DNA from: an uncultured Sunxiuqinia sp.
GTDB taxonomy: Bacteria; Bacteroidota; Bacteroidia; Bacteroidales; Prolixibacteraceae
DNA: 64,000 nucleotides
Assembly: GCF_947495665.1 (NCBI RefSeq)
Contig: NZ_CANLZV010000002.1
Coordinates: forward strand, 186,001 to 250,000
Direction: 5' to 3'
Position numbers and translations under genes: made by a program. Positions 4,289 through 58,548 of the stretch are shown here, in pieces (position 1 is the stretch's first letter; the number at the start of each line of letters is the position of its first letter). Under the pieces are notes generated by a model. That model made no database searches. It was not told the origin of the DNA and saw nothing but the letters and a program-made list of their open reading frames with translations.

Positions 4289-4678
4289 GTGAAAAGATTA
4301 ACTGAAGCAGCTGACCAACTGAATGAACTACTCAATGCCAATAAACTGGATAGGCATAAATTAGAAAATATTGCTCGCGAGTTAGATCAAATAATAGGCT
4401 TGCGACTCAAACTCGTTGACTTCGAAAAGTACAACGAAAAAGAATTGGAGAAACTGACTACCGAGAAACAAATACAAATCAAAAAACAAAATTTCGAAGC
4501 TGCTGCCAACGCCCGGGAACAGGAAAAGGAATGCTTTAAATACGCCAATTTTCAAAAGTACTTCCAATTAAAAAACTCCTTCTTCTATCCCGAAGAGGGA
4601 AAGCTGTTTTATTTCCACCTGGGAACAGCAAAAAATGATGTGGCGATCAAAGACTACTTCTTCGGGAAAGAAGCCTAA
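4289..4678 (+). CDS. Small coiled-coil protein with a UVR-like motif
   Basis: A 129-residue charged protein starting 18 bp after the FtsZ-like gene and surely cotranscribed with it. The N-terminal half is helical (heptad-like leucines from residue 2 to 60). Residues ~52-75 (LEKLTTEKQIQIKKQNFEAAANAREQEKEC) read like the UVR motif found at the UvrB C-terminus, UvrC and McsA, a helical hairpin for protein-protein contacts, with the diagnostic F-E-A-A-x-x-A-R core. The last 40 residues are aromatic-rich and unrecognised. A likely role is adaptor or partner of the FtsZ-like filament protein; this is inference. Confidence 0.6.
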   Translation: MKRLTEAADQLNELLNANKLDRHKLENIARELDQIIGLRLKLVDFEKYNEKELEKLTTEKQIQIKKQNFEAAANAREQEKECFKYANFQKYFQLKNSFFYPEEGKLFYFHLGTAKNDVAIKDYFFGKEA

Positions 4679-7138: not shown

Positions 7139-8047
7139 TTAATCCTCAGGTGCAACGGGTTCCGATCCGCTGTTTTTTTTCTGTTGGTTAAATAACATCA
7201 AAGACTTTGTCGCTTGCCGTCCGCCTTTCATTTTAGAACTCTGTAGCTTCATTTTATCCCATCTTATTTTTATAGCTTGCAGTTCCTTTTTGATGGCTTC
7301 TATTTGTCGATAGATTTGGTTATCAGGATTCTCATCCGGAATTTCATTGGAGATAAAATGGACAAATTTCCATGCCTCGCGGATTTCACTCACAGGCAGA
7401 TCGTAGGCTTCATAATCCGGGTTCAGAGAAATCATGTGAAGGCTGCCTTTTTCGGTCAATTCATTGCGTACTTTTTTAAATACAATTCCCTCGTTTAGGG
7501 TAAGCACTACATACAGTTCATCATCCTTAATGTCGAACAAATCCTGCACAAATTCACCGGTCACCCAGCTTTTATCGGGTATTGGTAACATTGAATCGCC
7601 ATCAATCTGAAAGGTACGGTATTTCTTCTCGCGGGATAAAAATGGCAGTTGAAACACGGGTAGACCTGCAATAAATTCTGAATCAAAATAACCCACGGTA
7701 TATCCAGCCTTGGCCTTGATCGAAACCAACTCGATGTTGTCCTGATTTTGGGCATCCACCGTAGTAGCCAGCACCCGGATTTCATTGCCCCGTACAAAAA
7801 CGTCTGAACCATGCTCAATCAGATACAATTGGCTTTCGCGTAAGCTCGAAAGATTCACCCGCAACAGGGTATCGACAGACAAATGAAATAAATCTGACAA
7901 GGCTAGTACCACCGGCAATGGAGGCATAGCAATTCCGTTTTCATAATTATTAATGCTCGACCGCTTGGTGTTCAGTGCATCTGCAACGTCCAACTGCGTG
8001 AGTCTGCGTCGCTTGCGCAAAAATTTAAGATTTTCGGATAGGTACAT
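7139..8047 (-). CDS. XRE-S24 (LexA-like) transcriptional repressor
   Basis: A 302-residue regulator. Residues 4-58 form an XRE helix-turn-helix (LTQLDVADALNTKRSSINNYENG). The C-terminal half is an S24/LexA peptidase-type domain with the serine in QIDGDSMLP (S152) and a lysine in IVFKKV (K191 or K192). An Ala-Gly pair at 114-115 is a candidate self-cleavage site. A lysine-rich helical tail of about 60 residues follows. It is divergently transcribed from a Y-family polymerase and a DnaE polymerase, with two similar operators in the 133-bp spacer. That arrangement suggests an SOS-like repressor of the mutagenic cassette, derepressed by RecA-stimulated autocleavage or by another stress signal. 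Confidence 0.85.
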   Translation of the reverse strand: MYLSENLKFLRKRRRLTQLDVADALNTKRSSINNYENGIAMPPLPVVLALSDLFHLSVDTLLRVNLSSLRESQLYLIEHGSDVFVRGNEIRVLATTVDAQNQDNIELVSIKAKAGYTVGYFDSEFIAGLPVFQLPFLSREKKYRTFQIDGDSMLPIPDKSWVTGEFVQDLFDIKDDELYVVLTLNEGIVFKKVRNELTEKGSLHMISLNPDYEAYDLPVSEIREAWKFVHFISNEIPDENPDNQIYRQIEAIKKELQAIKIRWDKMKLQSSKMKGGRQATKSLMLFNQQKKNSGSEPVAPED

Positions 8048-8106: not shown

Positions 8107-8180
8107 AAATATACGAAGAATGTACGGATTCAGGCAAGATGCTTATTGCATTTTGCGTAAAGTGGTAGGAGAACGATAAA

Positions 8181-9341
8181 ATGCAGTTACAGGACAGAAC
8201 AATTGTACACATGGATCTGGATACTTTTTTTGTGTCTGTGGAGCGGTTGATGGATTCAGCATTGGAGGGGAAGCCTGTTATTATTGGAGGATTGTCTGAC
8301 AGGGGAGTGGTAGCCAGTTGCAGTTATGAAGCGCGGCAATTTGGAGTACACGCGGCCATGCCTATGAAAATGGCACTCAACTTATGCCGTGATGCTGCTG
8401 TCATTCGGGGGGATATGGATTTGTACAGCAAATACTCACGGCTGGTTACTGAGGTAATTGCCGAAAAGGCTCCCTTATATGAAAAGGCTTCCATCGATGA
8501 GCATTACCTGGATATAACCGGGTTAGATCGCTTTTTCGGATCGTACCAGTGGACACACGAACTGCGGGAGCGTATTATCCGCGAAACCGGACTGCCCATC
8601 TCTTTTGGATTATCGGTAAACAAAACCGTCAGCAAGATTGCTACTGGTGAGGCAAAGCCCAACGGAGAAAAATACGTTGAACGCAACGGAGTAAAGCCCT
8701 TTTTAAATCCCTTGTCCATTCGAAAAATTCCGATGGTGGGACCAAAAACATACCAGTTGCTTAGGTCGATGGGCGTTTCCACAATTCAAACACTCAGCGC
8801 TATTCCACAGGAGATGATGATCAGCCTGCTTGGAAAGAATGGTATTGATATCTGGCGAAAGGCTCAGGGGATCGACTTTACCCCGGTTGTCCCTTACAGT
8901 GAAGAAAAATCGATCAGCACTGAACGTACCTTTGAAACTGACAGCATTGATGTGGCTATGCTCGAACAACTGCTTACAGCCATGACCGAGAAGCTATGTT
9001 TTAAACTACGAGAGAAAGAAAAGCTGGCTTCGGTAGTAACTGTAAAAATCCGCTATTCCAATTACGACACGCATACCCTGCAACGAAAAATTACTTACAC
9101 TTCATACGATCATATCTTGATTAAAACTGCCCGTGAGTTATTTCACCGATTATATGAAAGGCGAATGCTTATCCGGTTAATTGGTGTGAAATTAGGAGGG
9201 TTGGTGCATGGGGCGCAGCAACTTAACCTTTTTGATAACAATGAAAAGCAGGTTCGTCTTTACCTGTCAATGGACCAAATCCGACTGCGTTATGGCGCCG
9301 GGGCTATCCAAAGAGCTTCCGGAATCATTTTCAAAGATTAG
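8181..9341 (+). CDS. dinB: Y-family DNA polymerase IV (DinB)
   Basis: A 386-residue translesion polymerase. Motif I is VHMDLDTFFVSVERL near the N-terminus and the second catalytic site is KASIDEHYLDITG near 103-113, so the acidic residues are present although the usual SIDEAYLD alanine is histidine. A GLSVNKTVSKIATGEAKPNG stretch, the helix-hairpin-helix (IPMVGPKTYQLLRSMGV) and a little-finger domain follow. The end, QQLNLFD, is a plausible beta-clamp binding motif (Q-x-x-L-F type). It lies 19 bp before the DnaE gene and is probably cotranscribed with it. A second dinB is present at 44015, so this is the inducible accessory copy. Confidence 0.93.
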   Translation: MQLQDRTIVHMDLDTFFVSVERLMDSALEGKPVIIGGLSDRGVVASCSYEARQFGVHAAMPMKMALNLCRDAAVIRGDMDLYSKYSRLVTEVIAEKAPLYEKASIDEHYLDITGLDRFFGSYQWTHELRERIIRETGLPISFGLSVNKTVSKIATGEAKPNGEKYVERNGVKPFLNPLSIRKIPMVGPKTYQLLRSMGVSTIQTLSAIPQEMMISLLGKNGIDIWRKAQGIDFTPVVPYSEEKSISTERTFETDSIDVAMLEQLLTAMTEKLCFKLREKEKLASVVTVKIRYSNYDTHTLQRKITYTSYDHILIKTARELFHRLYERRMLIRLIGVKLGGLVHGAQQLNLFDNNEKQVRLYLSMDQIRLRYGAGAIQRASGIIFKD

Positions 9342-28772: not shown

Positions 28773-31441
<2,669 letters not shown>

Positions 31442-45255: not shown

Positions 45256-46428
45256 TTAGAGCTGAAAGGCTTGCAAACGCGCCATGGTTTGGTAATAGCT
45301 TTTTTCTATTTCCAAATAAGCATCCATGGTTTCGTAATAAAAAGCCAATTCATTGAAATACTCAATCACGGACATTTGTCCCAGAGCAAGTGCTTTGTCC
45401 AGGAAACCAACATTGGCAGATTCTTTCAGCGTTTGCTGGTATTCATCGCGTATGGTGGCATATTCCTTCACCTGCTGATACAAGTTGGTGGTTTCGTTCA
45501 GAATGGCCGCAATTCTCGCATTGTAGCGGTTGGTTTCATACAGTGCTTGGGCTTTGGCATGCTGCACCTTGTTTTTATCCTTCCACAGAGGGATGGCCAC
45601 TCCGGCTTTCAATCCGCGATAGGTTCCGTCCGGGGCACGCTCGCCTTCATAGGATATTTCAAGGTTGGGCAGCCAGTTGTTTCTGGCCAGTTTAACATTC
45701 ATATCCGCTATCTTTTGGGCTTGTTTCAGGTAGCGAAGCTCCGGTTGTTGGCCCTGAATTTCGTCCAGTATATTGCCCAGCGGCGGAAGTTCTTGGTCGT
45801 CCAGCAAAGGCAACTCTTGTGGTGTCAGTTCTTTGCCGGCCAATAGTTCCAGCTCCTTAAGCGTGCTTTCAATGGATTGCAGCAGCAACTGGTAATTGCT
45901 TTTGATCATTAAATTCTGAATGCGGGCCTTATTGACATCCAGCACCGAAGTATTTCCCTGGTCAAACCGGGCCTGATACGACTGGTAAATTCGGGTAGAA
46001 TGCTCCAAGCGATTTTCATACTCTGCCTTTTGCTTCAATAAAAAGGCATAGTCGTAGAATTTGAGCTTGGCTTCCAAAAGTTTATCCTGACGGAAGACCT
46101 GATACTCCATATCGCTGAGTTCGCCGCGATTGTTTGCCAGTTTTTTGCGAATGCCGTAAACCGTCGGGAAATCAAACGACTGGCTGATGCCATAAATGGT
46201 TTTTGTGCCCATGGCATCGTTGCTTCCCGGAAACCGACCATATTCTACGGTCGGGTTATCGGGGGTGAGCTCGGTCTGAAATCCAGCTTTTTCGGCCTCC
46301 GACAGTTTTCGTGCAGCCTGCAATTCCTGGTTATTTTCTTCCACTAACTGCAAAAAATTGTCCAGCCCGGGTTGGGCCGAAGCAGCCAGTGTAATGAAAC
46401 TTAATAGTAATAGGATGAGGGTCTTCAT
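45256..46428 (-). CDS. TolC-family outer-membrane efflux protein (CzcC-like)
   Basis: 390 residues with a signal peptide (MKTLILLLLSFITLAASAQ) and two outer-membrane-efflux repeats made of long helices (LLEAKLKFYDYAFLLKQKAEYENRLEHSTRIYQSYQARFDQGNTSVLDVNKARIQ...). It forms the outer-membrane channel of a tripartite metal pump. Its ATG overlaps the stop of the RND pump gene (46425-46428), so the two are translationally coupled. Confidence 0.92.
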   Translation of the reverse strand: MKTLILLLLSFITLAASAQPGLDNFLQLVEENNQELQAARKLSEAEKAGFQTELTPDNPTVEYGRFPGSNDAMGTKTIYGISQSFDFPTVYGIRKKLANNRGELSDMEYQVFRQDKLLEAKLKFYDYAFLLKQKAEYENRLEHSTRIYQSYQARFDQGNTSVLDVNKARIQNLMIKSNYQLLLQSIESTLKELELLAGKELTPQELPLLDDQELPPLGNILDEIQGQQPELRYLKQAQKIADMNVKLARNNWLPNLEISYEGERAPDGTYRGLKAGVAIPLWKDKNKVQHAKAQALYETNRYNARIAAILNETTNLYQQVKEYATIRDEYQQTLKESANVGFLDKALALGQMSVIEYFNELAFYYETMDAYLEIEKSYYQTMARLQAFQL

Positions 46429-49400
46429 GATTCTGATTTTACGTCCTGTTTTTTCTGAAATAAGTAATAAATAATGGGCACGATGTAGCTATTCAACAAG
46501 GTTGAACTTAACAAGCCACCCAGAATAACAATGGCCATAGGGCTTTGAATCTCATTGCCCGGTTTATCTCCGGCAAGGGCCAGGGGAATTAATGCCAGGG
46601 CTGCAGTTAAAGCCGTCATCAAAATCGGATTGAGCCGGTCGGCCGATCCTTCAATGATGCGCTCTTTCAGACTTACAAGCTGGCCGGAAAGCGACTGGTA
46701 GCGCGAAATCAGCAAGATGCCGTTTCGGGTGGCAATTCCAAACAGGGTAATAAAACCGATGATGGATGGAATGCTGATCACGCCGGAAGTAAACCAGATG
46801 GCTATCACCCCTCCAATCAAGGCAAGCGGGAGGTTAATCAGAATAATCAGAGCCAGCTGTGTATTTTTAAATTCCACATAAAGTAAGATGAAAATAATCA
46901 GCAAGGCTCCGAGCGAGGCAATAAGCAAAATACGGGATGCCGAAGCTTCACTTTCAAACTGACCACCATATTCAATGTGGTAATTCTCCGGTAGGGCAAT
47001 GTTTGCATCAACACGATCCTGAATGTCGTTCACTACGCTGCGTACATCACGATTGGCGACATTGACGGCAACCACAATTTTGCGCATCACATTTTCGCGG
47101 CCAATGGTGTTGGGCCCAAAAGTCGATTGAATGTCGGCTACATACGAAAGGGGCACTTTTTGTCCATTAGGAGTGTCGATTAAACCATTCTGAATGGCTT
47201 CAATCTGGTCGCGGTATTCATCATCAAAGCGAAGGACAAGATTGAACGCTTTTTCATTCTCAAAAACATCCGATATCTTTTTTCCGGCGTAGGCGTAGTC
47301 CACAAACTCCAAAAGCTCATTGACCGAGATGCCGTAGCGCGCCAGCATTTCCCGGCGGGGCTTTATTTGCAACTGCGGAATTTCAATCTGTTGCTCCACG
47401 CTCAAGTCTCCAATGCCTTCGATGTCTTGAATCTCATCGCGAATTTGATTGGCCAGGCGAAACAGATCATTCAGGTCCGTTCCGAAAAGCTTGATGGCAA
47501 TGTTGGTTTTTGAGCCCGAAAGCATCGCATCAATCCGGTGACTGATGGGCTGGCCAACTTCAATGGAGATGCCATCGATGCTGTTGAGTTTTTCCCGAAC
47601 TTCGTGAAGAAATTCTTCGCGCGAGCGGTCTTCCAGTTGGTAAGGAGCATCAATCTCTGAAACATTTACCCCAAATGAATGTTCGGCCATTTCGGCCCGC
47701 CCGGTACGCCGGGCAACGCTGCTAATCTCCGGAATAGTGAGCAGAAGTTTTTCGGCCTGAGTGCCTATTTTATTGCTTTCTTCCAGGTTAATGCCGGGCA
47801 TGGTGGTTGTGTTAATGGTTAACGATCCTTCGTTAAACGGAGGAAGGAAGCTTCGTCCAAAACCGGTAAGCAGCAACATCGTAAGTACAAAGGCCGCGAT
47901 GGAAACACCCAGTACCGTTTTGCGGTAGCGCAAGGCTTTGTCCAGCGTGGAGGTATAATGGTGTCTCAAAAAACGCTCAACACGGCTGCCCCGGGCTTGC
48001 TTTTGCAAACGTTTTTCATCGGTGAGCAAATAGCTGGAGAGCACAGGAATCACCGTCAGTGCCACAAAAAGCGAGGCAAAAAGCGAAACAATGTAGGCGA
48101 TTCCCAGCGGTTTAAGCATGCGTCCTTCCATGCCTGACAGGAAAAACAAAGGAACAAAAGCGACAATGATAATGAGAGTGGCATTGAGAATCGAGGCACG
48201 GATTTCAACGGAAGCCTTGTAAATTACCTTAAACACGGAGTGCTGATCTGCCTTAGGGAGCAAACTGTTTTCGCGCAAGCGTTTAAAGACGTTTTCCACA
48301 TCAATGATGGCATCGTCTACCAGCGATCCGATGGCAATGGTCATTCCACCCAAAGTCATGGTATTGATGGAAATTCCCATCCATTTCATGGCCAGAATGG
48401 CAACCAGCAAGGACAGGGGAATGGCCAGTACCGAAATAAGCGTGGTCCGGAAGTTCATCAGGAAAACAAACAGAATAATGACCACAAAGATACCGCCTTC
48501 GATGAGGGCTTTCTGAACATTGTTGACCGATGTTTGAATGAACTTGGCCTGTTCGAAAATGTCGGTGTGAATGCCAACATCAGCCGGAAGCGTTTTTTGC
48601 AAGTCGCTCAATGACTCATGGATTTTCTCGGTTAGCTCCAGCGTATTGACATTGGGTTGCTTGGTGATGGTCATAATGATGGCATCTTCAGCTCGATAGG
48701 CGCCATCACCAATTTTAGGTGCTGCTCCGATTTTAACGGTCGCCACATCGCTGACTTTCACCGGCATTCCATCATTCATTTTTACGAGGTTGTTCCCAAT
48801 CTCATCGGTGCTGTTGCTGCGTGCAATGCCCCGAACGAGGTATTCCTGGCCGTGCTCATTCAAAAAACCACCGGAAACATTTTCGTTGGAAAACTGGCAG
48901 GCTTCAATCAGTTCTGAAAAAGATACTTTATGGAAAGCCATTTTTAACGGATCGGCCAGCACTTGAAACTCTTTCAGTTCGCCGCCAATAATGGCCACCT
49001 GAGCCACTCCTCCTACCGAAAGCAGGCGTGGACGAATATTCCATTCGGCCAGGGTACGTAAGTCCATGGGAGAGGTTTCGTCGGCCGTAAGGGCAATCAT
49101 CATGATTTCACCCATGATGGAAGACTGGGGTGCCAGGGTGGGGGAACCCACACCGGTTGGCATTTGGTCGGCAATGGTAGCCAACTTTTCGCTTACAATT
49201 TGACGGGCATTGTAAATGTCCATGTTCCAGTCAAATTCAACCCAAACAATGGAGAAACCCATGGCTGAGGAGCTCCTGACACGACGTATGTTGGTTGCGC
49301 CGTTCACCGCCGTTTCAATCGGGAAGGTTACCAGGCGTTCTACTTCTTCGGGGGCCATGCCATTGGCTTCGGTTAGCACCACAACCGTTGGGGCATTCAA

Positions 49401-49523
49401 GTCCGGAAAGACATCGACCTCCATTTCGGTGCTCACAAAAATTCCAGCGCCAAGAATAAGGGTGGTCATAATCAGCACGACCAACCTGTTCTTCAGCGAA
49501 TAGTCTATAATTTTATTCAGCAT
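46425..49523 (-). CDS. CzcA/CusA-family RND heavy-metal efflux pump
   Basis: 1032 residues, 12 membrane helices in the RND pattern (helix 1, large periplasmic domain, helices 2-7, second periplasmic domain, helices 8-12). Helix 4 carries the proton-relay acidic residues in GSLVDDAIIDVENVFKRLREN, the D-D-A-x-x-x-x-E signature of heavy-metal RND pumps. It exports divalent or monovalent metal ions from periplasm or cytoplasm. The substrate (Co/Zn/Cd versus Cu/Ag) cannot be fixed; the histidine-rich partner points to Zn, Co, Ni or Cu. Confidence 0.94.
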   Translation of the reverse strand: MLNKIIDYSLKNRLVVLIMTTLILGAGIFVSTEMEVDVFPDLNAPTVVVLTEANGMAPEEVERLVTFPIETAVNGATNIRRVRSSSAMGFSIVWVEFDWNMDIYNARQIVSEKLATIADQMPTGVGSPTLAPQSSIMGEIMMIALTADETSPMDLRTLAEWNIRPRLLSVGGVAQVAIIGGELKEFQVLADPLKMAFHKVSFSELIEACQFSNENVSGGFLNEHGQEYLVRGIARSNSTDEIGNNLVKMNDGMPVKVSDVATVKIGAAPKIGDGAYRAEDAIIMTITKQPNVNTLELTEKIHESLSDLQKTLPADVGIHTDIFEQAKFIQTSVNNVQKALIEGGIFVVIILFVFLMNFRTTLISVLAIPLSLLVAILAMKWMGISINTMTLGGMTIAIGSLVDDAIIDVENVFKRLRENSLLPKADQHSVFKVIYKASVEIRASILNATLIIIVAFVPLFFLSGMEGRMLKPLGIAYIVSLFASLFVALTVIPVLSSYLLTDEKRLQKQARGSRVERFLRHHYTSTLDKALRYRKTVLGVSIAAFVLTMLLLTGFGRSFLPPFNEGSLTINTTTMPGINLEESNKIGTQAEKLLLTIPEISSVARRTGRAEMAEHSFGVNVSEIDAPYQLEDRSREEFLHEVREKLNSIDGISIEVGQPISHRIDAMLSGSKTNIAIKLFGTDLNDLFRLANQIRDEIQDIEGIGDLSVEQQIEIPQLQIKPRREMLARYGISVNELLEFVDYAYAGKKISDVFENEKAFNLVLRFDDEYRDQIEAIQNGLIDTPNGQKVPLSYVADIQSTFGPNTIGRENVMRKIVVAVNVANRDVRSVVNDIQDRVDANIALPENYHIEYGGQFESEASASRILLIASLGALLIIFILLYVEFKNTQLALIILINLPLALIGGVIAIWFTSGVISIPSIIGFITLFGIATRNGILLISRYQSLSGQLVSLKERIIEGSADRLNPILMTALTAALALIPLALAGDKPGNEIQSPMAIVILGGLLSSTLLNSYIVPIIYYLFQKKQDVKSES

Positions 49524-49540
49524 AATTAATCAGTTGAATG

Positions 49541-50797
49541 TTAGTGTTGGTGACTGTGTGCCGGCAGCGCATTCGACATGGATGCCAGTTTGATCTGGTA
49601 AGGGTTTTTGGTGGCCACATGATCGCCAACTTCCAGCCCGTCTACAATGTGATAGTTTTCGCCGTCGTTACAGTCGATGGTCAGGTAATGTTTCTGGAAC
49701 TCTTCACCTTCTTCGGCAAAAACATAATACCTACCGGCTTCTTCCAGCAGAGCAGACTTGGGAATGACAATCGCATTGGGGATTGCCGCTGTCTTCAAAT
49801 AGATTTCTACAAAGGAGCCGGCCAGCAAATTACCCACATTGTCAACTTCAAAATAGACGGGAGTAAACAGGGAGTTATCACCGGTTGTTTTGCCGTAGGA
49901 AATCAGTTTGCCGTTCAACGCTTCGGTTTTATGCAATTGCTGGTCGTAGACAGTAATGAAGTTGGCTGATTGAATTTGGGGCAGCATGCTGAAATAGCGC
50001 TGCGGAACATCAGCTTGAATCACCAGCCGTTTGTTTTTGGTGATTTTGACCAAGGCTTGCCCTCTGCTTACGTATTGTCCTTCGGTAACCAGGATGTCTT
50101 TTATAAAACCGCTGGTTGAGGCTGTTATGTTTTGACCAGCTGCCGTGTAGTTTTTACGTACAATGTCGTAATTATTTTGGGCTATTTCATAGGTCATTTT
50201 GATGTCAGCTAACTCTTTATCCGAAGTAATTTTGTCTTCATTCAGCGCTTGTGCCCGTTCATAATTGGCTTTAGCTGTTTCGTAGCTGGTTTTCAATTCA
50301 ATGAAGGTGGTTTCAATGTTGTCATTGATCATGCCTTTGCCCGAGATGGTAACCAGCTTTTGCCCGCTACGCACAGCCTTGCCCGGAAACAGTGCTTTGT
50401 CTCCAAAAACGACGATGCCATCGTGGGTGGCTGTCAGGGTAATTTCATCGCCTTGTGCAGCCATAATTTTACCACTGCAGTGAATCACCTCCTGAAAGTC
50501 CTGCGGCTTAATTTCAATGATTCCGTAGGCATCGTCATCTTCATGAGCATGGGCCTCTTCACTGTGGTCATGTGCATGATCTCCTTCACAGTCGCTGTGA
50601 TCATGTTCCTCGGCTTCATGGTCATGTCCTTCATGCTCATCTGCCGGGCTTTCATGGTCGTGATCATGCCCCTCATGATCTGCATGGTCATGTGCTGTTG
50701 ATTCTTCCTGGTGATTGTGTCCTTCGGTGTTATGGGTGCACGCTGACGCCCAAAGTAAATAACCCATTATTAATAAGGGGAATACTAATTTCTTCAT
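49541..50797 (-). CDS. RND periplasmic adaptor (CzcB-like) with histidine-rich N-terminus
   Basis: 418 residues. The signal MKKLVFPLLIMGYLLWASAC suggests a lipoprotein. Residues ~21-90 hold dozens of His, Asp and Glu residues (HNTEGHNHQEESTAHDHADH and onward), a metal-binding tail. The membrane-fusion body follows with the lipoyl halves, a coiled-coil hairpin (TTFIELKTSYETAKANYERAQALNEDKITSDKELADIKMTYEIAQ) and a beta-barrel. It links the RND pump to the TolC-like channel and probably also captures metal in the periplasm. It is 17 bp upstream of the pump gene. Confidence 0.93.
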   Translation of the reverse strand: MKKLVFPLLIMGYLLWASACTHNTEGHNHQEESTAHDHADHEGHDHDHESPADEHEGHDHEAEEHDHSDCEGDHAHDHSEEAHAHEDDDAYGIIEIKPQDFQEVIHCSGKIMAAQGDEITLTATHDGIVVFGDKALFPGKAVRSGQKLVTISGKGMINDNIETTFIELKTSYETAKANYERAQALNEDKITSDKELADIKMTYEIAQNNYDIVRKNYTAAGQNITASTSGFIKDILVTEGQYVSRGQALVKITKNKRLVIQADVPQRYFSMLPQIQSANFITVYDQQLHKTEALNGKLISYGKTTGDNSLFTPVYFEVDNVGNLLAGSFVEIYLKTAAIPNAIVIPKSALLEEAGRYYVFAEEGEEFQKHYLTIDCNDGENYHIVDGLEVGDHVATKNPYQIKLASMSNALPAHSHQH

Positions 50798-50876
50798 GAT
50801 TAGGATATTAAATCGTTTTTTCAGTTACTTACTGAAAAATGAATTGGATGTAAATAAAATTGATGTAGGGGTGGAG

Positions 50877-51296
50877 TTATCCTAACATGGGAGGACCACG
50901 GGAAGCTGCGCGGGAAAGAAAACAGTATGAATAGTGGTTCGACCACGAATCATAGTGGGTAAGCTGGTCTTGCGGAAAAAGGTAAATACGCAGGATCGAA
51001 CTGACCAGGTAGCTGTAGTTCAGTACCAATTTGGAAATGGATGTCGTTGCAACAGTAGTGAAGTTACAACCTTGGCAATCTTCATGTTGATGCTCTGCCT
51101 GGCATAAGCTTAATGCCAGCGAATGATCCACAAACAGGGCTTTATTACCCGAAGGAACCTTAGGGCTGTGGCTGCATTCCTGCTCACAACTAAGCTCCTC
51201 GGCATGATGATGGTGCGGAATGACGCTATGCCCGATGATTACCAGCATCGCCATCCACATAAACAAGGCTCCTATATGTCTGTTTTTCTGAACCAT
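50877..51296 (-). CDS. Small histidine/cysteine-rich membrane protein of the metal-efflux operon
   Basis: 139 residues with one N-terminal membrane segment (HIGALFMWMAMLVIIGHSVIP) followed by PHHHHAEELSCEQECSHSP, then CQAEHQHEDCQGC. The cysteine and histidine clusters look metal-binding. Such small proteins often head heavy-metal RND operons in Bacteroidota and may sense or buffer metal. It starts the operon, 79 bp before the adaptor gene. Confidence 0.75.
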   Translation of the reverse strand: MVQKNRHIGALFMWMAMLVIIGHSVIPHHHHAEELSCEQECSHSPKVPSGNKALFVDHSLALSLCQAEHQHEDCQGCNFTTVATTSISKLVLNYSYLVSSILRIYLFPQDQLTHYDSWSNHYSYCFLSRAASRGPPMLG

Positions 51297-51574: not shown

Positions 51575-51582
51575 TACTTTTG
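51575..51582 (+). promoter_or_regulatory. -7 promoter element of the sulfite reduction operon
   Basis: TACTTTTG fits TAnnTTTG and lies 29 bp before the leader-peptide ATG at 51612. The -33 region is AT-rich without a clear TTTG at the ideal distance. Confidence 0.6.
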
Positions 51583-51611: not shown

Positions 51612-51713
51612 ATGAAATTCCAGACTTCTGTATATAAAATGATGATGACAGCATGTGCCATGATGATGTGTATGTATTGCAATCTTTTTATGCAGAAGGG
51701 GGAAAAGATATGA
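51612..51713 (+). CDS. Met/Cys-rich leader peptide of the sulfite reductase operon
   Basis: A 33-residue frame, too short for usual gene calling: after MKFQTSVYK it reads MMMTACAMMMCMYCNLFM and ends QKGEKI with TGA. Nine of 33 codons are Met and three are Cys, an extreme bias. It sits in the untranslated leader of a sulfite-reduction operon, 94 bp before the first gene and just upstream of a strong terminator. The codons for Q28-K29-G30 contain the sequence that can pair with the terminator. This is the architecture of a trp/his-type attenuation leader, tuned to Met and Cys tRNA charging. Confidence 0.85.
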   Translation: MKFQTSVYKMMMTACAMMMCMYCNLFMQKGEKI

Positions 51714-51781
51714 TTTGACTATACGTTAAAATAACAATCGTAGGAAAGGCCCTTCTGTACAAACAGAAGGGCCTTTTTTTA
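51693..51781 (+). promoter_or_regulatory. Attenuator: antiterminator and terminator of the sulfite reductase operon
   Basis: The terminator is GGCCCTTCTGT (51748-51758), loop ACAA, ACAGAAGGGCC (51763-51773) and a run of T. An earlier copy of the 3' arm, CAGAAGGG (51693-51700), lies inside the leader ORF just after its last Met codon and is perfectly complementary to CCCTTCTG (51750-51757). A ribosome stalled on the Met/Cys codons leaves CAGAAGGG free to capture that arm and prevent termination; a ribosome reaching the stop at 51711 covers it and lets the terminator form. Confidence 0.8.
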
Positions 51782-51806: not shown

Positions 51807-52037
51807 ATGAGAGAGAAAGCTTATCGCAGTGTGGTTAAGACGATTTCATGGAGAACGGTGGGGACCATTGACACCATCCTGATAGCCTGGCTGGTGATCG
51901 GGCGGCTGGAATTTGCCGTGACTATTGGCGGAATTGAATTGTTTACCAAAATGGTGTTGTACTATTTCCACGAACGAACCTGGAACAAAATCAAGTTTGG
52001 ACGGCTGGATGATTCAGACATCGAATACCAAATCTAA
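51807..52037 (+). CDS. DUF2061 small membrane protein
   Basis: 76 residues with two membrane segments: REKAYRSVVKTISWRTVGTIDTILIAWLVIG and AVTIGGIELFTKMVLYYFHERTWNKI, the DUF2061 signature (SxxKxxxWRxxgtxdT, ...YYxHERxW). This family is often found next to sulfate assimilation genes; its role is unknown. First structural gene behind the attenuator and 6 bp before the siroheme gene. Confidence 0.93.
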   Translation: MREKAYRSVVKTISWRTVGTIDTILIAWLVIGRLEFAVTIGGIELFTKMVLYYFHERTWNKIKFGRLDDSDIEYQI

Positions 52038-52043
52038 GAAACC

Positions 52044-52517
52044 ATGGAAAAGAACTTTTTACCCATCGCACTGAATATTTCTGGAGAGAAGATCTTAATC
52101 ATCGGAGGAGGGCAGTCGGCCTGGAGCAAGATTCAGATTCTGCAACGCTTTGATGCTGATCTGGAAGTTGTAGCCCTGCAGGTTTGCCCGGAAATCCAAA
52201 ACAGTGGCATCCCTTTCAAGATTAAGGCCTACGAGAAGGCTGACCTGGATGGTTATTTGATGTTTTATTCGTGCACCAACAATCCCGAACTGGACGCCCG
52301 GATTGCTCAGGATGGCAAGGAAGCCGGAGTGTTGGTTAATATTCACGATAATCCGGCTCTTTGCCAGTTTGTTTCGCCCGCAATCTATCAAAACGAGAGC
52401 GTGCGTGTGGCTGTCAGCTCCAATGCCAAAGATGTTTATGCGTCTATTCGTGTTCGCAATGAAATAAAAGAATTTTTAGAATCCCAAACAGATAAAGACC
52501 AGAACAATGAGTATTAA
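52044..52517 (+). CDS. Siroheme synthase N-terminal-like protein (precorrin-2 dehydrogenase)
   Basis: 157 residues: the NAD-binding Rossmann part of CysG/Met8 (FLPIALNISGEKILIIGGGQSAWSKIQILQRF), then a shortened dimerisation part. It should oxidise precorrin-2 to sirohydrochlorin and, as in Met8, may also insert iron, since no separate ferrochelatase is seen in the operon. It is shorter than typical (~200) and overlaps the next gene by 11 bp. Confidence 0.9.
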   Translation: MEKNFLPIALNISGEKILIIGGGQSAWSKIQILQRFDADLEVVALQVCPEIQNSGIPFKIKAYEKADLDGYLMFYSCTNNPELDARIAQDGKEAGVLVNIHDNPALCQFVSPAIYQNESVRVAVSSNAKDVYASIRVRNEIKEFLESQTDKDQNNEY

Positions 52518-54300
52518 ATTATCCCCATTAAACGATGTTCAACTGAAAGCACTGGAGCAGCTCACCCAAGGAATTCAGCCTGAACAGGCCATTTGGCTGA
52601 ATGGCTATTTTCAGGGATTGGCCGGAGGCTTAACTACGGCAAAATCGGCGGTTCAACTTCCGCAGGATGATGAGGCCACCGGCACTGTTGAGAAACTTCC
52701 CCTGACCATTTTGTATGGCACGCACACCGGACGAAGCGAGGCATTGGCCAAGGCTCTTTGTGAGCAGGCCCGTGCACAAAATATAACTTGCCTTTTAAAA
52801 CCGATGGACGATTATAAACCCAAGCAACTGAAGGAAGAGAAAAACCTGCTGGTGATTGTAAGCACCCACGGCGAGGGCGAACCTCCTGAAATGGCGGAAG
52901 ACTTTTACGAGTTTATTACCGGTAAGCGGGTGCCTAAACTGGATGGGTTGAATTATGCCGTATTGGCTTTGGGCGATAAGAGCTACAAGCTGTTTTGCCA
53001 AACCGGGATTGAAATAGACCAGGCCCTGCAAAAAGCCGGTGCCCGGACGTTGGTGCCTCTGGTAAAATGCGATGTTGATTATGAATCGGATGCTGCCCGA
53101 TGGACTCAGGATGTACTAGCTGAATTGGGCAAATTGCAGCCTCAGGCACCGGTTGTCGCAGCAGTACCGGCAACAGCTAAAGGGGGAGAGGAGTATTCTA
53201 AAAAGAACCCGTTTAAGGCATCCGTGTTGGATAAAGTGCGTATTACCGGTCGCGATTCGGATAAGGAAGTTTATCATTTGGAATTTGGGCTGGAAGGTTC
53301 CGGCATTACCTACGAACCGGGTGATGCGCTTGGAGTGATTGCTCAAAACCCACCTCAGCTGGTGAAGGAAATTATCAAAAGCCTGGGGGTAATTGATACG
53401 GAAGTGGTTGAAACCCGCATTGGAAAGCTGCCTTTTAAGGAGGCCTTGGAACACCATTATGAAATCACCTTGTTAACGCGTGATCTTATTCAGAAATATG
53501 CTGAAAAGACCAAAGACAAAAAGGTGAAAGCCATTGCGGAATCTGACGAAAAGCTGGATCAGTACCTATACGGACATGATGTGCTCGACCTCCTTCAGGA
53601 GTTTCCGGCCAGGCTGACCGCTACCGAATTTTTGGAGCTGCTGCGTCCGCTGCCACCACGCCTGTACAGCATTTCGTCGAGCCAAATGGCCGTGGAAGAT
53701 GAAGTACACATCACGGTGTCACGTGTTCGTTACGAAAACAAAGGGCGTCAGCGTTACGGCGCTTGTTCCACCTTCCTGGCTGATCGGCTGGAAGTGGATG
53801 ACCAGGTGCTCATCTACATCGATAAGAATCCGAATTTCCGCCTGGCTGAAAATGGGAAGCCAATTATCATGGTTGGTGCCGGAACAGGCATTGCTCCTTA
53901 CCGGGCTTTCTTGCAGGAACGCGAATCGGGCAACCAGAAAGGAAAAAGCTGGCTGTTTTTTGGAGAACGACGTTTCTCGTCCGACTTTCTGTATCAGCTT
54001 GAATGGCAAAAATACCTGCAAAAGGGTTACCTCGAAAAAATTGATTTGGCTTTCTCGCGCGATCAGAAGGAGAAGGTTTACGTTCAGCATAAGCTAAAAG
54101 AACAGCAAGAGGAATTGTTTCGCTGGCTGGAAGATGGTGCTAGTTTTTACTTGTGTGGCGACATGAAATACATGGCTAAAGATGTGCAGATTACGCTGTT
54201 GGATATCATCAAAACACAAGGAGGGATGACCGATAAGAAGGCCCGTGCCTATTTCAAAAAACTGAAGAAGGAAAAGCGATTTATGGCCGATGTGTATTAA
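52507..54300 (+). CDS. cysJ: Assimilatory sulfite reductase flavoprotein (CysJ-like)
   Basis: 597 residues: a short N-terminal helix region, a flavodoxin domain (~60-205; LTILYGTHTGRSEALAKALCEQA, STHGEGEPPEMAEDFYEFI), an FAD domain with RLYSISSSQ and RQRYGACSTFLADRL, and an NADPH domain with GAGTGIAPYRAFLQER and the C-terminal Y of VY. It passes electrons from NADPH through FAD and FMN to the hemoprotein encoded next. Confidence 0.95.
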   Translation: MSIKLSPLNDVQLKALEQLTQGIQPEQAIWLNGYFQGLAGGLTTAKSAVQLPQDDEATGTVEKLPLTILYGTHTGRSEALAKALCEQARAQNITCLLKPMDDYKPKQLKEEKNLLVIVSTHGEGEPPEMAEDFYEFITGKRVPKLDGLNYAVLALGDKSYKLFCQTGIEIDQALQKAGARTLVPLVKCDVDYESDAARWTQDVLAELGKLQPQAPVVAAVPATAKGGEEYSKKNPFKASVLDKVRITGRDSDKEVYHLEFGLEGSGITYEPGDALGVIAQNPPQLVKEIIKSLGVIDTEVVETRIGKLPFKEALEHHYEITLLTRDLIQKYAEKTKDKKVKAIAESDEKLDQYLYGHDVLDLLQEFPARLTATEFLELLRPLPPRLYSISSSQMAVEDEVHITVSRVRYENKGRQRYGACSTFLADRLEVDDQVLIYIDKNPNFRLAENGKPIIMVGAGTGIAPYRAFLQERESGNQKGKSWLFFGERRFSSDFLYQLEWQKYLQKGYLEKIDLAFSRDQKEKVYVQHKLKEQQEELFRWLEDGASFYLCGDMKYMAKDVQITLLDIIKTQGGMTDKKARAYFKKLKKEKRFMADVY

Positions 54301-54379: not shown

Positions 54380-56077
54380 ATGAGCGATACTATAGATTGG
54401 AGCAAACTGGCAGAAGTGGAACGCATAAAATACGAGAGCAACTACCTTAGAGGAACTTTGGAGGAGAGTTTGGCCGACGAAGTTACCGGCGCTATTGCGG
54501 CCGATGATACGCAGTTGTCGAAATTCCACGGCATTTATCAGCAACACGACCGTGATTTGGAAAAGGAACGTAAACGCCAAAAACTGGAGCCGGCCTTTTC
54601 ATTTTTGATTCGGGTGCGCTTGCCGGGAGGCGTGGCCAGCCCTGCGCAGTGGTTACAAATGGATCAGTTGGCAGATACCCACGCCAACGGAACATTGAAA
54701 CTGACGACCCGTCAGGCTTTTCAATTGCACGGGGTGATCAAGAAAAATCTGAAACCAACCATCCGTGGAATTAATGAGGCCTTGATGGACACCATTGCCG
54801 CTTGTGGCGATGTGAATCGAAATGTGATGTCGCATGCTAACCCCGCTGAATCGGAATTGCACGCGGCTGTTTATAAACTGGCTGGCGATATTTCTGCTCA
54901 CCTGACCCCTCAAACGTCAGCTTATCACGAAATTTGGCTGGATAAGCAGAAAGTAGCCGACAGCAAAACCGAAGTGGAGCCCATTTATGGCAATCGCTAT
55001 TTGCCACGAAAATTTAAGATTGGTGTCGCCATTCCTCCCTACAACGATGTGGATATTTTCTCGCAGGATTTGGGCTTTATAGCCATTGAAGAGGATGGGA
55101 AACTGCTTGGTTACAATGTTACTGCCGGTGGTGGGTTGGGCTCAACCTTTGGAATTCCCGAAGCTTATCCGCGGCTGGCCGATGTTATTGGTTTTTGCAC
55201 GCCCGAGCAGGCGGTAGATTTAGCCGAGAAAATCGTGCTGGTGCAAAAAGACCATGGAGACCGAACCAACCGCAAGCAGGCTCGCTTGAAATACACCATC
55301 GACCGCAAAGGGCTTAATTGGTTTAAAGCAGAAGTGAACAAGTACTTAGGCTATGAACTGCAGCCGGCCAAACCGTTCAAATTCATCCGCAATGGCGATC
55401 GTTACGGTTGGAAGCAAGGTGCCGATGGAAAATGGAGTTTGAACCTGTTTGTTGAGGGCGGCCGGGTAAAAGATACCGACACGCTTCAGTTGAAGACAGC
55501 TCTGCGCGAAGTGGCTGAACAAGTGAAAGATGCCCAGTTTATTCTTACCGGAAACCAAAACCTGATCATTGCCGGAACCAGCGATAAAGACGCAGTGAAC
55601 CGGATTATGAGCAAGTATGGGGTTTGGCCCATGCCTTTGTCTGGTCTTCGCCAAAACACCATTGCCTGTGTGGCTCTGAATACCTGTGGACTGGCTTTTG
55701 CCGAAGCCGAGCGCTACCTGCCAAGCCTGGTTGGAAAGATTGAAACCATTTTGGAAGAATACGATTTGCTGAAACAGGAAATTGTGATTCGCATGACGGG
55801 TTGCCCCAATGGCTGCGGACGTCCATACCTGGCCGAGATTGGTTTCATTGGGAAATCACTGGGGCATTACAACCTCTATTTGGGAGGGAATTTCAACGGT
55901 ACACGCTTGAATACCCTCTACAAGGAAACTCTTTCCGAAGAAGAAATATTGGCTGAGCTACGGCCCATTATTGCCGATTATGCCACCAGCAGAGAAGAAG
56001 GCGAAAGCTTTGGTGATTTTGTAATTCGAAAGGGATACGTCAAGGAAACCAAACAAGGAAAAGATTTTAAACATTGA
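54380..56077 (+). CDS. cysI: Assimilatory sulfite reductase hemoprotein
   Basis: 565 residues, the usual length. The siroheme/4Fe-4S cysteines are visible as [21 protein letters not shown] (C-x5-C) and [16 protein letters not shown] (C-x3-C). Substrate-binding arginine/lysine segments [21 protein letters not shown] and [16 protein letters not shown] are present. It reduces sulfite to sulfide with six electrons from CysJ, feeding MetY and cysteine synthesis. 79 bp after cysJ. Confidence 0.96.
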
Positions 56078-56090
56078 AACGGAGGGAATC

Positions 56091-56831
56091 ATGGAATTAC
56101 CGGCAATATTTATAGGTAGAAAATTATCAGCATTGACCCGAAAATGGCTGGTCAGCGAGCAGATTCGCTTTATTGAGCAGCCGCTGATTCGGATTACATA
56201 TCGTAAACCGGATGTCGCCTTATTTAACTCCTGGCAAGGCAGCAGTAAAAAATGGGTGGTAACCAGTTCGTATGCGGCCCACTGGCTGTTGCGCTTTGCG
56301 GATCGTATTGGCTTTGAAAAAGGAGAGCAGGTGTATTGCCTTTCAGAAAAGCAGGAAGGAATTTTAACCCGCTGTGGGGTGAAGGTCCTACGGCCTGCAT
56401 CGCCCAATGCCTATGCTTTGGCCGAGCTGCTGCTGAAGGAGGATAAGCATAAAAAGATTGTTTACCTGCGCGGAAATAAATCGCTTAATCCTTTGGAGGA
56501 AATGTTGGATCAATACCAGCAGGATTGGCAGGCTGTTGAAGTCTACAAAAATACCTCCATCGAAATTTTGATGAATGAGGTGTTTGACGGCTACCTGTTT
56601 TTTAGCGAGAGCGCCATTAAAAGCTACAAGGCGTCGGGTAATTTCCCGCCACCCAAGGCGCCGGTTTTAGCCAATGGCAACCGGACGGCGCAGGCTGCCT
56701 GGGCCGAATTCCCTAACTTAGTTCTCGAATCGCATGAGCAGGAAGAGCTTTCGTTTGTTAAATATGCGATTCGGCGGATTACCGAGAAATTGAATGAGCC
56801 GGAACCCAAGCACCGAATCATCATTGAATAA
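56091..56831 (+). CDS. hemD: Uroporphyrinogen-III synthase (HemD-like)
   Basis: 246 residues. Divergent in sequence like all HemD proteins, but KKWVVTSSYAAHWLLRFA, KIVYLRGNKSLNPLEEML, VYKNTSIE and GYLFFSESAIKSY occupy the expected places of the two-domain fold. It makes uroporphyrinogen III, the substrate of the methyltransferase at 57751, so the operon carries its own supply for siroheme. 13 bp after cysI. Confidence 0.85.
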   Translation: MELPAIFIGRKLSALTRKWLVSEQIRFIEQPLIRITYRKPDVALFNSWQGSSKKWVVTSSYAAHWLLRFADRIGFEKGEQVYCLSEKQEGILTRCGVKVLRPASPNAYALAELLLKEDKHKKIVYLRGNKSLNPLEEMLDQYQQDWQAVEVYKNTSIEILMNEVFDGYLFFSESAIKSYKASGNFPPPKAPVLANGNRTAQAAWAEFPNLVLESHEQEELSFVKYAIRRITEKLNEPEPKHRIIIE

Positions 56832-57750: not shown

Positions 57751-58548
57751 ATGTCAAGAACTAAAACAGAGCACTCAAACGAGGAGGCACGAAGCCCAAA
57801 GAACCACTTGATTTCCATTGTGGGCGCAGGGCCGGGAGATCCGGAATTGCTTACCATTCGGGCTCTTCGCCGGCTGGAACAGGCGGATGTGATCCTGTAC
57901 GATGCCTTGCATGGCACCGGGATTTTGGAGCTGGCAAAACCGTCAGCCCTGAAAATTTATGCCGGCAAACATTACCAGGATGGTCAGCACCAAACCGAGC
58001 GGCAGGACAACATACACCGCCAGTTGAAACAATTTGCTGGGGAAGGCAAGCGGGTGGTGCGCTTGAAAGCAGGCGATCCCTTTATTTTTGGGCGGGGCGC
58101 CGAAGAACTGGCCTTTTGTTTTCAGGAAAAACTAAATGTGGAAGTCGTGCCGGGCATTACAGCCGGACTGGCTGCGGCCAGCTGTTTTCACATTCCGGTA
58201 ACGCTGAGAAATGTCAATAGCATGGCCCTGTTTTATACGGGGCATAAACGCAACGGCGGTTTTGAAAACATGGATGAAGTAGCTGCGGTAATCAAAGCCA
58301 AAGCTCCGGTTATGGTTTACATGGGCCTGAAAAACCTGCAGCTGCTGGCCAGCGAATTGCAGCGCCGGGAAGTTTCGGGCGATGTACCGCTCCAAATCGT
58401 TAGTCGGGTAGGGCACCCCGATCAGCAGTTGTTCACCTCTTCCCTGGCACAAATTGAATCGGATTTAACTCGAATCGATCCTCCGATGCCATCGGTTATC
58501 CTCATTGGTAGCCATGCCCATCAGGTTACCGCAACCACCGTAGTTTAA
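57751..58548 (+). CDS. cobA: Uroporphyrinogen-III C-methyltransferase (SUMT)
   Basis: 265 residues. ISIVGAGPGDPELLTIRALRRLEQADVILYDAL, RVVRLKAGDPFIFGRGAEELAF, VEVVPGITAGLAAASCFHIPVTLR and APVMVYMGLKNL are the standard SUMT motifs. It methylates uroporphyrinogen III twice with SAM, giving precorrin-2, the substrate of the 52044 gene product. Last gene of the sulfite/siroheme operon. Confidence 0.95.
   Translation: MSRTKTEHSNEEARSPKNHLISIVGAGPGDPELLTIRALRRLEQADVILYDALHGTGILELAKPSALKIYAGKHYQDGQHQTERQDNIHRQLKQFAGEGKRVVRLKAGDPFIFGRGAEELAFCFQEKLNVEVVPGITAGLAAASCFHIPVTLRNVNSMALFYTGHKRNGGFENMDEVAAVIKAKAPVMVYMGLKNLQLLASELQRREVSGDVPLQIVSRVGHPDQQLFTSSLAQIESDLTRIDPPMPSVILIGSHAHQVTATTVV

Follow-up and report, generated by a model that had tools for sequence, protein, structure and literature searches.

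A cysteine-coded leader peptide with a four-segment hairpin switch, a probable transcription attenuator, heads sulfite reductase operons in Prolixibacteraceae

The window analysed here, a 64,000-nucleotide stretch of DNA from an uncultured Sunxiuqinia sp. (Bacteroidota, Prolixibacteraceae), carries a run of genes whose role is sulfite reduction and provision of its siroheme cofactor, and which thereby yield sulfide for cysteine (Table 1). These genes are preceded by a compact leader region composed of a promoter box, a short open reading frame (ORF) and an intrinsic terminator. An earlier, sequence-only reading of this DNA had described an ORF of 33 codons, nine of them Met and three Cys, followed by a perfect terminator that could pair with a segment inside the ORF, and all of this was confirmed base for base. 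Divergent from the operon, on the minus strand, lies a gene set for an RND metal-efflux pump (46425-50797). The adaptor of this pump is very rich in His (DHADHEGHDHDHE), and a small protein containing Cys and His is also encoded within 46425-51296. A metY-like gene for O-acetylhomoserine sulfhydrylase (28788-30053, minus strand, L134), followed by a metA-like gene, has neither a leader peptide nor a match to an Rfam riboswitch.

Table 1. Features of the leader and operon in the window, with the cysK leader located elsewhere in that genome
Feature	Position	Strand	Remarks
-7 promoter box TACTTTTG (TAnnTTTG), Bacteroidota-type	51575-51582	+	29 nt 5' of the leader ATG
Leader peptide ORF MKFQTSVYKMMMTACAMMMCMYCNLFMQKGEKI	51612-51713	+	Frame kept in 51/51 homologous leaders
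Segment 1 (CTTCTGTATA)	51625-51634	+	Predicted to pair with segment 2 in ribosome-free RNA (MFE fold, conserved in homologs)
Cys codon 15	51654-51656	+	
Control codons C20-M21-Y22-C23	51669-51680	+	Conserved; consensus C-M-C-C over 50 homologous leaders
Segment 2 (TGCAGAAGGG)	51691-51700	+	Partner is segment 1 or 3; codons read Met-Gln-Lys-Gly
Leader stop codon	51711-51713	+	
Segment 3, terminator 5' arm (GGCCCTTCTG)	51748-51757	+	51750-51759 pairs with segment 2
Segment 4, 3' arm CAGAAGGGCC (51764-51773) and T7 (51774-51780)	51764-51780	+	Intrinsic terminator
DUF2061 membrane protein, first operon gene	51807-52037	+	Pfam PF09834, E 3.6e-22
sirC-like siroheme synthase (NAD_binding_7)	52044-52517	+	PF13241
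cysJ, sulfite reductase flavoprotein	52507-54300	+	PF00258, PF00667, PF00175
cysI, sulfite reductase hemoprotein	54380-56077	+	PF01077, PF03460
hemD, uroporphyrinogen-III synthase	56091-56831	+	PF02602
Small NAD-binding protein			Between hemD and the uroporphyrinogen methylase gene, same operon region
Tetrapyrrole (uroporphyrinogen) methylase, cobA/SUMT-like	57751-58548	+	PF00590
cysK leader	Contig C1 of the window's genome, ~283,000-283,160 (L034)	-	Pattern search

The composition of the leader ORF is exceptional, wherein at least 11 Cys or Met residues among 32 would be expected with P ~2e-10 given the frequencies in the window's own long genes (Cys 0.72%, Met 1.79%), which provide the background used here. 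The terminator stem (51748-51773) is a perfect helix of 10 base pairs, closed by the loop TACAAA and followed by the run of seven T residues, and this is the single instance of such an ORF-plus-terminator arrangement within the 64 kb window. Within the ORF, CAGAAGGG (51693-51700) reproduces a stretch of the terminator 3' arm, and its letters complement those of the 5' arm. The sequence-only reading had called the attenuator complete, and its parts and their order are real; it had missed segment 1, which is located inside codons 5-8 of the ORF, as well as the TAnnTTTG box and a second leader elsewhere in the genome. Because segment 1 is predicted to pair with segment 2, the layout comprises four segments rather than three parts, with pairings 1:2, 2:3 and 3:4 as in classical attenuators. 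The fold of the 191-nt leader as a whole surpasses those of its dinucleotide shuffles by 5.6 s.d., and none of 200 shuffles equalled it.

By combining a DUF2061 family search with a pattern scan that covered 84,980 species, each represented by a single genome, we obtained 51 distinct leaders that reside before sirC-cysJI operons, almost all from Prolixibacteraceae. Named carriers belong to the genera Sunxiuqinia, Draconibacterium, Maribellus, Mangrovibacterium, Mariniphaga, Tangfeifania and Thermophagus. The window's genome falls with Sunxiuqinia, whose named contigs supply the loci of its own genus. All 23 Bacteroidota matches of the pattern scan precede sirC-cysJI operons. Two matches from Firmicutes (L095, L096) are unrelated sequences found at about the chance expectation, and three one-mismatch matches (L035-L037) were likewise dismissed as chance. 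Distant paralogs of DUF2061 (L073-L077) carry no leader. A perfect TAnnTTTG box is present no more than 110 nt upstream of 46 of the 51 leaders, typically 29-46 nt from the ATG, for a background expectation of 0.03 per 110 nt; among the 24 cysK leaders described below, one is preceded by a perfect box. Another locus in the window's genome, matching the region upstream of the leader (L002), was considered as another leader and rejected, since it shares a promoter before a TetR-like gene and nothing more.

The association of the leader is with the sulfur operon and not with DUF2061. It is retained at the 5' end of operons whose first gene is DUF2061, hemA, sirC, cysD or part of a sulfur-carrier operon, and where DUF2061 has no leader, the leader precedes the new first gene, as was predicted before the upstream DNA was retrieved. 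(Loci L069 and L070, in which the operon start falls outside the contig or the gene order shown, were left out of this tally.) In genus g18, the leader MRNFTSNMNMCMCSMMMCMCRAIRMRKWTSG precedes cysD (L200, ~8162-8258; L201, ~7474-7570) and heads a cysD-cysN-DUF2061-sirC operon, an arrangement that would place the sulfate-assimilation pathway under one attenuator. The sulfur-carrier operon is headed by the leader MIKSLSNSIMCMCCCMLFKRVEGGVMLC and a terminator (L202, ~4393-4553; L203, ~1032-1119, in reverse complement coordinates). Judged by eye, its genes encode ThiS-like sulfur carrier, ThiF/MoeB-like, DsrE/TusA-like and JAMM-type proteins, together with an O-acetylhomoserine sulfhydrylase-like protein and a sulfite reductase, and possibly constitute a protein-thiocarboxylate route to homocysteine. 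In Thermophagus xiamenensis (L099), the sirC-cysJI cluster behind the leader includes a further sirC-like gene of greater length (422 aa), approximately 3.5 kb downstream of the leader.

The same genome carries another leader of this type, consisting of MNFSFPNMCMCCCYRVTRGRYV and a GGCCTTCC/GGAAGGCC terminator, directly 5' of cysK. This leader is kept in approximately 27 of 30 cysK loci of the family (L141-L170), from which we collected 24 distinct relatives, and its consensus reads M-[CY]-M-C-C-C with an almost invariant CCC. Segments 1-3 are spelled differently from those of the cysJI leaders (CCTTCCC, GGGGAAGG and GCCTTCC), yet pairings 1:2, 2:3 and 3:4 are all present; every one of the 51 and 24 leaders combines a short ORF, Cys codons and these alternative pairings. 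Further leaders in the window's genome were sought by pattern and family searches, and none of this kind was found in the retrieved flanks of cysD, cysH and three metY-like genes. In other Bacteroidota families, sirC/cysJI genes are preceded by poly-Cys leaders (GLCCCMCSFCCCSS, LCCCMCSPFNCCCS, GCCSCCCC, DCCMCC..CCC) that hold few Met residues at most, and the forms before sirC operons include GLCCCMCSFCCCSSR, LCCCMCSPFNCCCSRK, GCCSCCCCS and DCCMCCYEPRCCCK. A phylum-wide sample of cysK upstream regions gave CCCCCKTC, NNSCCCTP, FCLCCCCG and others. In this sample, poly-Cys ORFs precede cysK in other families and classes (L175, L176, L183, L187, L188, L189, L193, L195), two of them with clear terminators. 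This distribution suggests that control by Cys-coded leaders may be phylum-wide in Bacteroidota.

Several characteristics bear on whether the ORF is translated. Eight values occur for the distance between the Ser codon of segment 1 and the Gln codon of segment 2, and in all 51 cysJI leaders this distance is a multiple of three, whereas the next distance, which is non-coding, takes 12 values that fall into all three residue classes. Such a pattern of evolution argues strongly that the frame is translated. Cys makes up 12.1% and 15.1% of residues in the two leader sets, compared to the background of 0.72%. In the control-codon core, the consensus residues C, M, C and C occur in 48, 50, 46 and 32 of 50 homologous leaders, respectively, and the middle position occupied by Tyr (TAT) in the window's leader is Cys in most homologs.

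Because ORF length is variable, the pairings were tested block by block in preference to a covariance model. For the 2:3 helix, the pair between position 5 of segment 2 and position 9 of segment 3 is GC in 19 leaders, GU in 13, UG in 10, UA in 7 and a non-pair in two, revealing compensatory changes. Pairing drops from 73.1% to at most 57.3% if the register is slid by 1 to 3, and it also falls when segment 3 is swapped between species, wherein none of 2000 swaps matched the observed value; with one leader per cluster (13 representatives), approximately 1% of swaps reached it. Since segments 2 and 3 are strongly conserved, much of this support derives from few changes, mainly between one genus and the rest. 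A 3:4 helix of at least 7 base pairs followed by a T-run occurs in 51/51 and 24/24 leaders, which were partly selected on that feature. The 1:2 helix is predicted by folding in all leaders, with 68.0% pairing versus at most 60.8% when the register is slid, and one of its pairs exhibits UA to CG changes. However, its swap test (10.20 of 15 observed versus 9.92 swapped) is not significant with cluster representatives. Covariation is weak here, and we therefore regard 1:2 as a predicted anti-antiterminator that covariation leaves unproven. The sequence-only reading had proposed alignment and covariation as a check on its model, and the outcome favors the antiterminator pairing and the Cys codons but is weak for 1:2.

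The geometry of the leaders was evaluated by assuming, from general knowledge, that a ribosome covers 12 nt beyond its A site. When the A site holds a Cys codon, at least 6 base pairs of 2:3 are retained in 51/51 and 24/24 leaders. The last Cys codon is separated from segment 2 by a median of 14 nt (7-17), a ribosome's width, and the end of segment 2 from the stop codon by a median of 7 nt. For the window's leader, the full 10 base pairs of 2:3 remain available until Cys23 and are gone at Met27. Together with the compensatory changes and the swap test, this geometry supports 2:3 as a mutually exclusive antiterminator, whose segment 2 would be covered by a ribosome that has reached the stop codon but left exposed by one stalled at the control codons. 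The proposal that a segment within the ORF is alternately hidden by the ribosome or paired with the terminator 5' arm is thus supported by the homologs. These were inspected for loss of the codon enrichment or of the pairing, a comparison that the proposal survived.

We consider it highly probable that the leader functions as a ribosome-mediated transcription attenuator that senses cysteine supply first of all. Because the leader and its hairpin switch are conserved, also before cysK, ribosome stalling at Cys codons very probably decides operon expression. Transcription would begin just downstream of the TAnnTTTG box, and a ribosome would load onto the leader ORF. When Cys-tRNA(Cys) is plentiful, this ribosome is expected to reach the stop codon and cover segment 2, such that the 3:4 hairpin forms and RNA polymerase halts at the T-run. 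When Cys-tRNA is short, the ribosome would stall at Cys codon 15, 20 or 23, where it would reside between segments 1 and 2, blocking 1:2, with its leading edge just short of segment 2. The free segment 2 could then pair with newly made segment 3, the terminator would be blocked, and the sirC-cysJI operon would be transcribed. If no ribosome loads, 1:2 and 3:4 would both form and transcription would end. Comparative sequence data are the basis on which we infer a stall at uncharged tRNA(Cys), the termination event itself and read-through.

As judged from codon content, the amino acid sensed is cysteine first of all. We name the element for cysteine and treat Met as a possible additional signal, because Cys is common to all leaders and Met enrichment is lineage-limited. 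The combined Met/Cys sensor originally envisioned therefore stands with regard to Cys, whereas its bivalence is unproven. Strong Met enrichment marks the cysJI leaders of Prolixibacteraceae and of one member of Marinilabiliaceae (Thermophagus) and no others, with Met at 16.4% of residues compared to 1.8% in the background. At least three Met within eight residues occur in 48/51 cysJI but 6/24 cysK leaders (Fisher p ~1e-9, for sequences that are not independent). In this lineage, Met codons may provide a second signal. As a special case of the cysteine attenuator, shortages of Met-tRNA and of Cys-tRNA might both relieve termination. This would be biologically sensible because sulfide from the operon is a precursor of both amino acids, and the thrL and ilvL leaders respond to their several amino acids. 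The core Met is invariant (50/50), the folded 2:3 helix would also survive a ribosome halted on Met10-12, 17-19 or 21, and a relative's leader, LCMCMCSCML, heads the operon for sulfur carrier, O-acetylhomoserine sulfhydrylase-like protein and sulfite reductase. On the other hand, cysJI/sirC leaders of other families are poor in Met, slippage can create ATGTGT repeats, constraint at the RNA level can also keep the single-codon Met invariant, and the metY-like genes of the window's genome have no Met leader. We therefore hold dual sensing to be a tentative idea with the odds somewhat against it. Rather doubtful, too, is the broader scheme for the Prolixibacteraceae/Thermophagus lineage of a hierarchical, leader-peptide-based sulfur regulon, wherein the cysJI leader senses both amino acids and its cysK counterpart in that cell responds to Cys alone. 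In one branch of genus g2 (L041, L044, L050, L047), the core reads M-C-M-W, with Trp replacing the second core Cys and few Cys remaining, which reflects either decay of the sensor or an altered signal.

Explanations that dispense with stalling fare considerably worse. Perhaps the ORF encodes a functional Met/Cys-rich microprotein, for example one that binds Cu or Zn, with the terminator doing no more than setting it apart from the operon. Its Met/Cys-rich sequence and the divergent RND metal-efflux system with a His-rich adaptor would agree with this role, but apart from the Cys/Met core and the codons spelling segments 1 and 2, the peptide varies greatly, and the part of segment 2 that pairs with segment 3 is retained as CAG-AAG. 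We dropped this metal-peptide idea, which now seems very improbable, because in every lineage the leader accompanies the sulfur operon instead of a metal gene. We assign a similarly small chance to a ligand riboswitch or protein-binding leader that switches the terminator while the ORF is incidental. A structured RNA with terminator and antiterminator is what such a device would exhibit; however, the frame is strictly conserved, Cys is written as TGT (168 codons) or TGC (29 codons), and unrelated leaders are enriched in Cys as well. Furthermore, no Rfam family reaches its gathering score, and no conserved aptamer-like unpaired core exists outside the codons. Rfam matches at a lax threshold (PyrR, rli40, Thr_leader) lie below the gathering score and were discarded as chance hits driven by the GC-rich hairpin. 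Strong terminators are common, and so a constitutive terminator next to a chance ORF might be imagined, although 75 homologous leaders with coupled features before two operon classes make this exceedingly unlikely, and a terminator of that kind, placed behind a conserved promoter, would shut the operon off.

The cysteine attenuator that we favor has relatives among known systems. The enterobacterial trpL, hisL, thrL and ilvL leaders combine a leader ORF and control codons with segments 1-4 that form pairings 1:2, 2:3 and 3:4. The leaders described here differ from them in amino acid and phylum, and in that the main control codons follow segment 1 and precede segment 2, instead of falling within segment 1. 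The uORFC-8-2 motif upstream of cysS in Rhodobacterales, as portrayed in the passage devoted to it (PMC8632094), likewise has an intrinsic terminator downstream of a short ORF that carries tandem Cys codons, and ribosome-mediated attenuation was proposed for it from comparative data. That motif belongs to another phylum and controls cysteinyl-tRNA synthetase, whereas sirC-cysJI or cysK lies downstream here; the set of 1:2, 2:3 and 3:4 pairings with Cys codons in the 1:2 loop is absent from that passage. Actinobacterial Cys leader peptides (Seliverstov et al., 2005, PMC1262725) are also Cys-codon ORFs before cysteine biosynthesis genes, but without the conserved terminator hairpin that is present here. 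The same gene context holds for the mycobacterial polycysteine uORFs (Canestrari et al., 2020), which, according to the papers that cite this work (PMC13236596, PMC9094748), respond to cysteine; a citing paper ascribes this to translational attenuation, and these accounts report no Met enrichment. Within Bacteroidota, leader-peptide attenuation has been inferred, as it is here, for amino-acid operons of Flavobacterium psychrophilum (PMC9723704), where the main text refers to operons for amino-acid biosynthesis in general, lists pheA and hisG as structured elements and mentions no leader for cysteine or sulfite reductase. In the literature searched, we came across no account of cysJI or cysK being controlled by a Cys attenuator in Bacteroidota.

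As a Cys-coded attenuator, the element would possess the full set of four segments together with an intrinsic terminator, unlike the Cys leaders of Actinobacteria. To our knowledge, little is known about the control of sulfur assimilation in Bacteroidota, and these leaders offer a specific cis-acting control that is testable in culturable strains such as Draconibacterium orientale, Sunxiuqinia and Mangrovibacterium. Short Cys-coded ORFs can also flag cysteine-regulated operons of unknown genes, including DUF2061 and the sulfur-carrier operon of relatives. Moreover, the Met-rich cysJI leader and the Met-poor cysK leader in the same cell provide a natural test of whether one leader integrates two amino acids. 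If this proved true, the supplier at the branch point would read both products, and the committed enzyme just its own.
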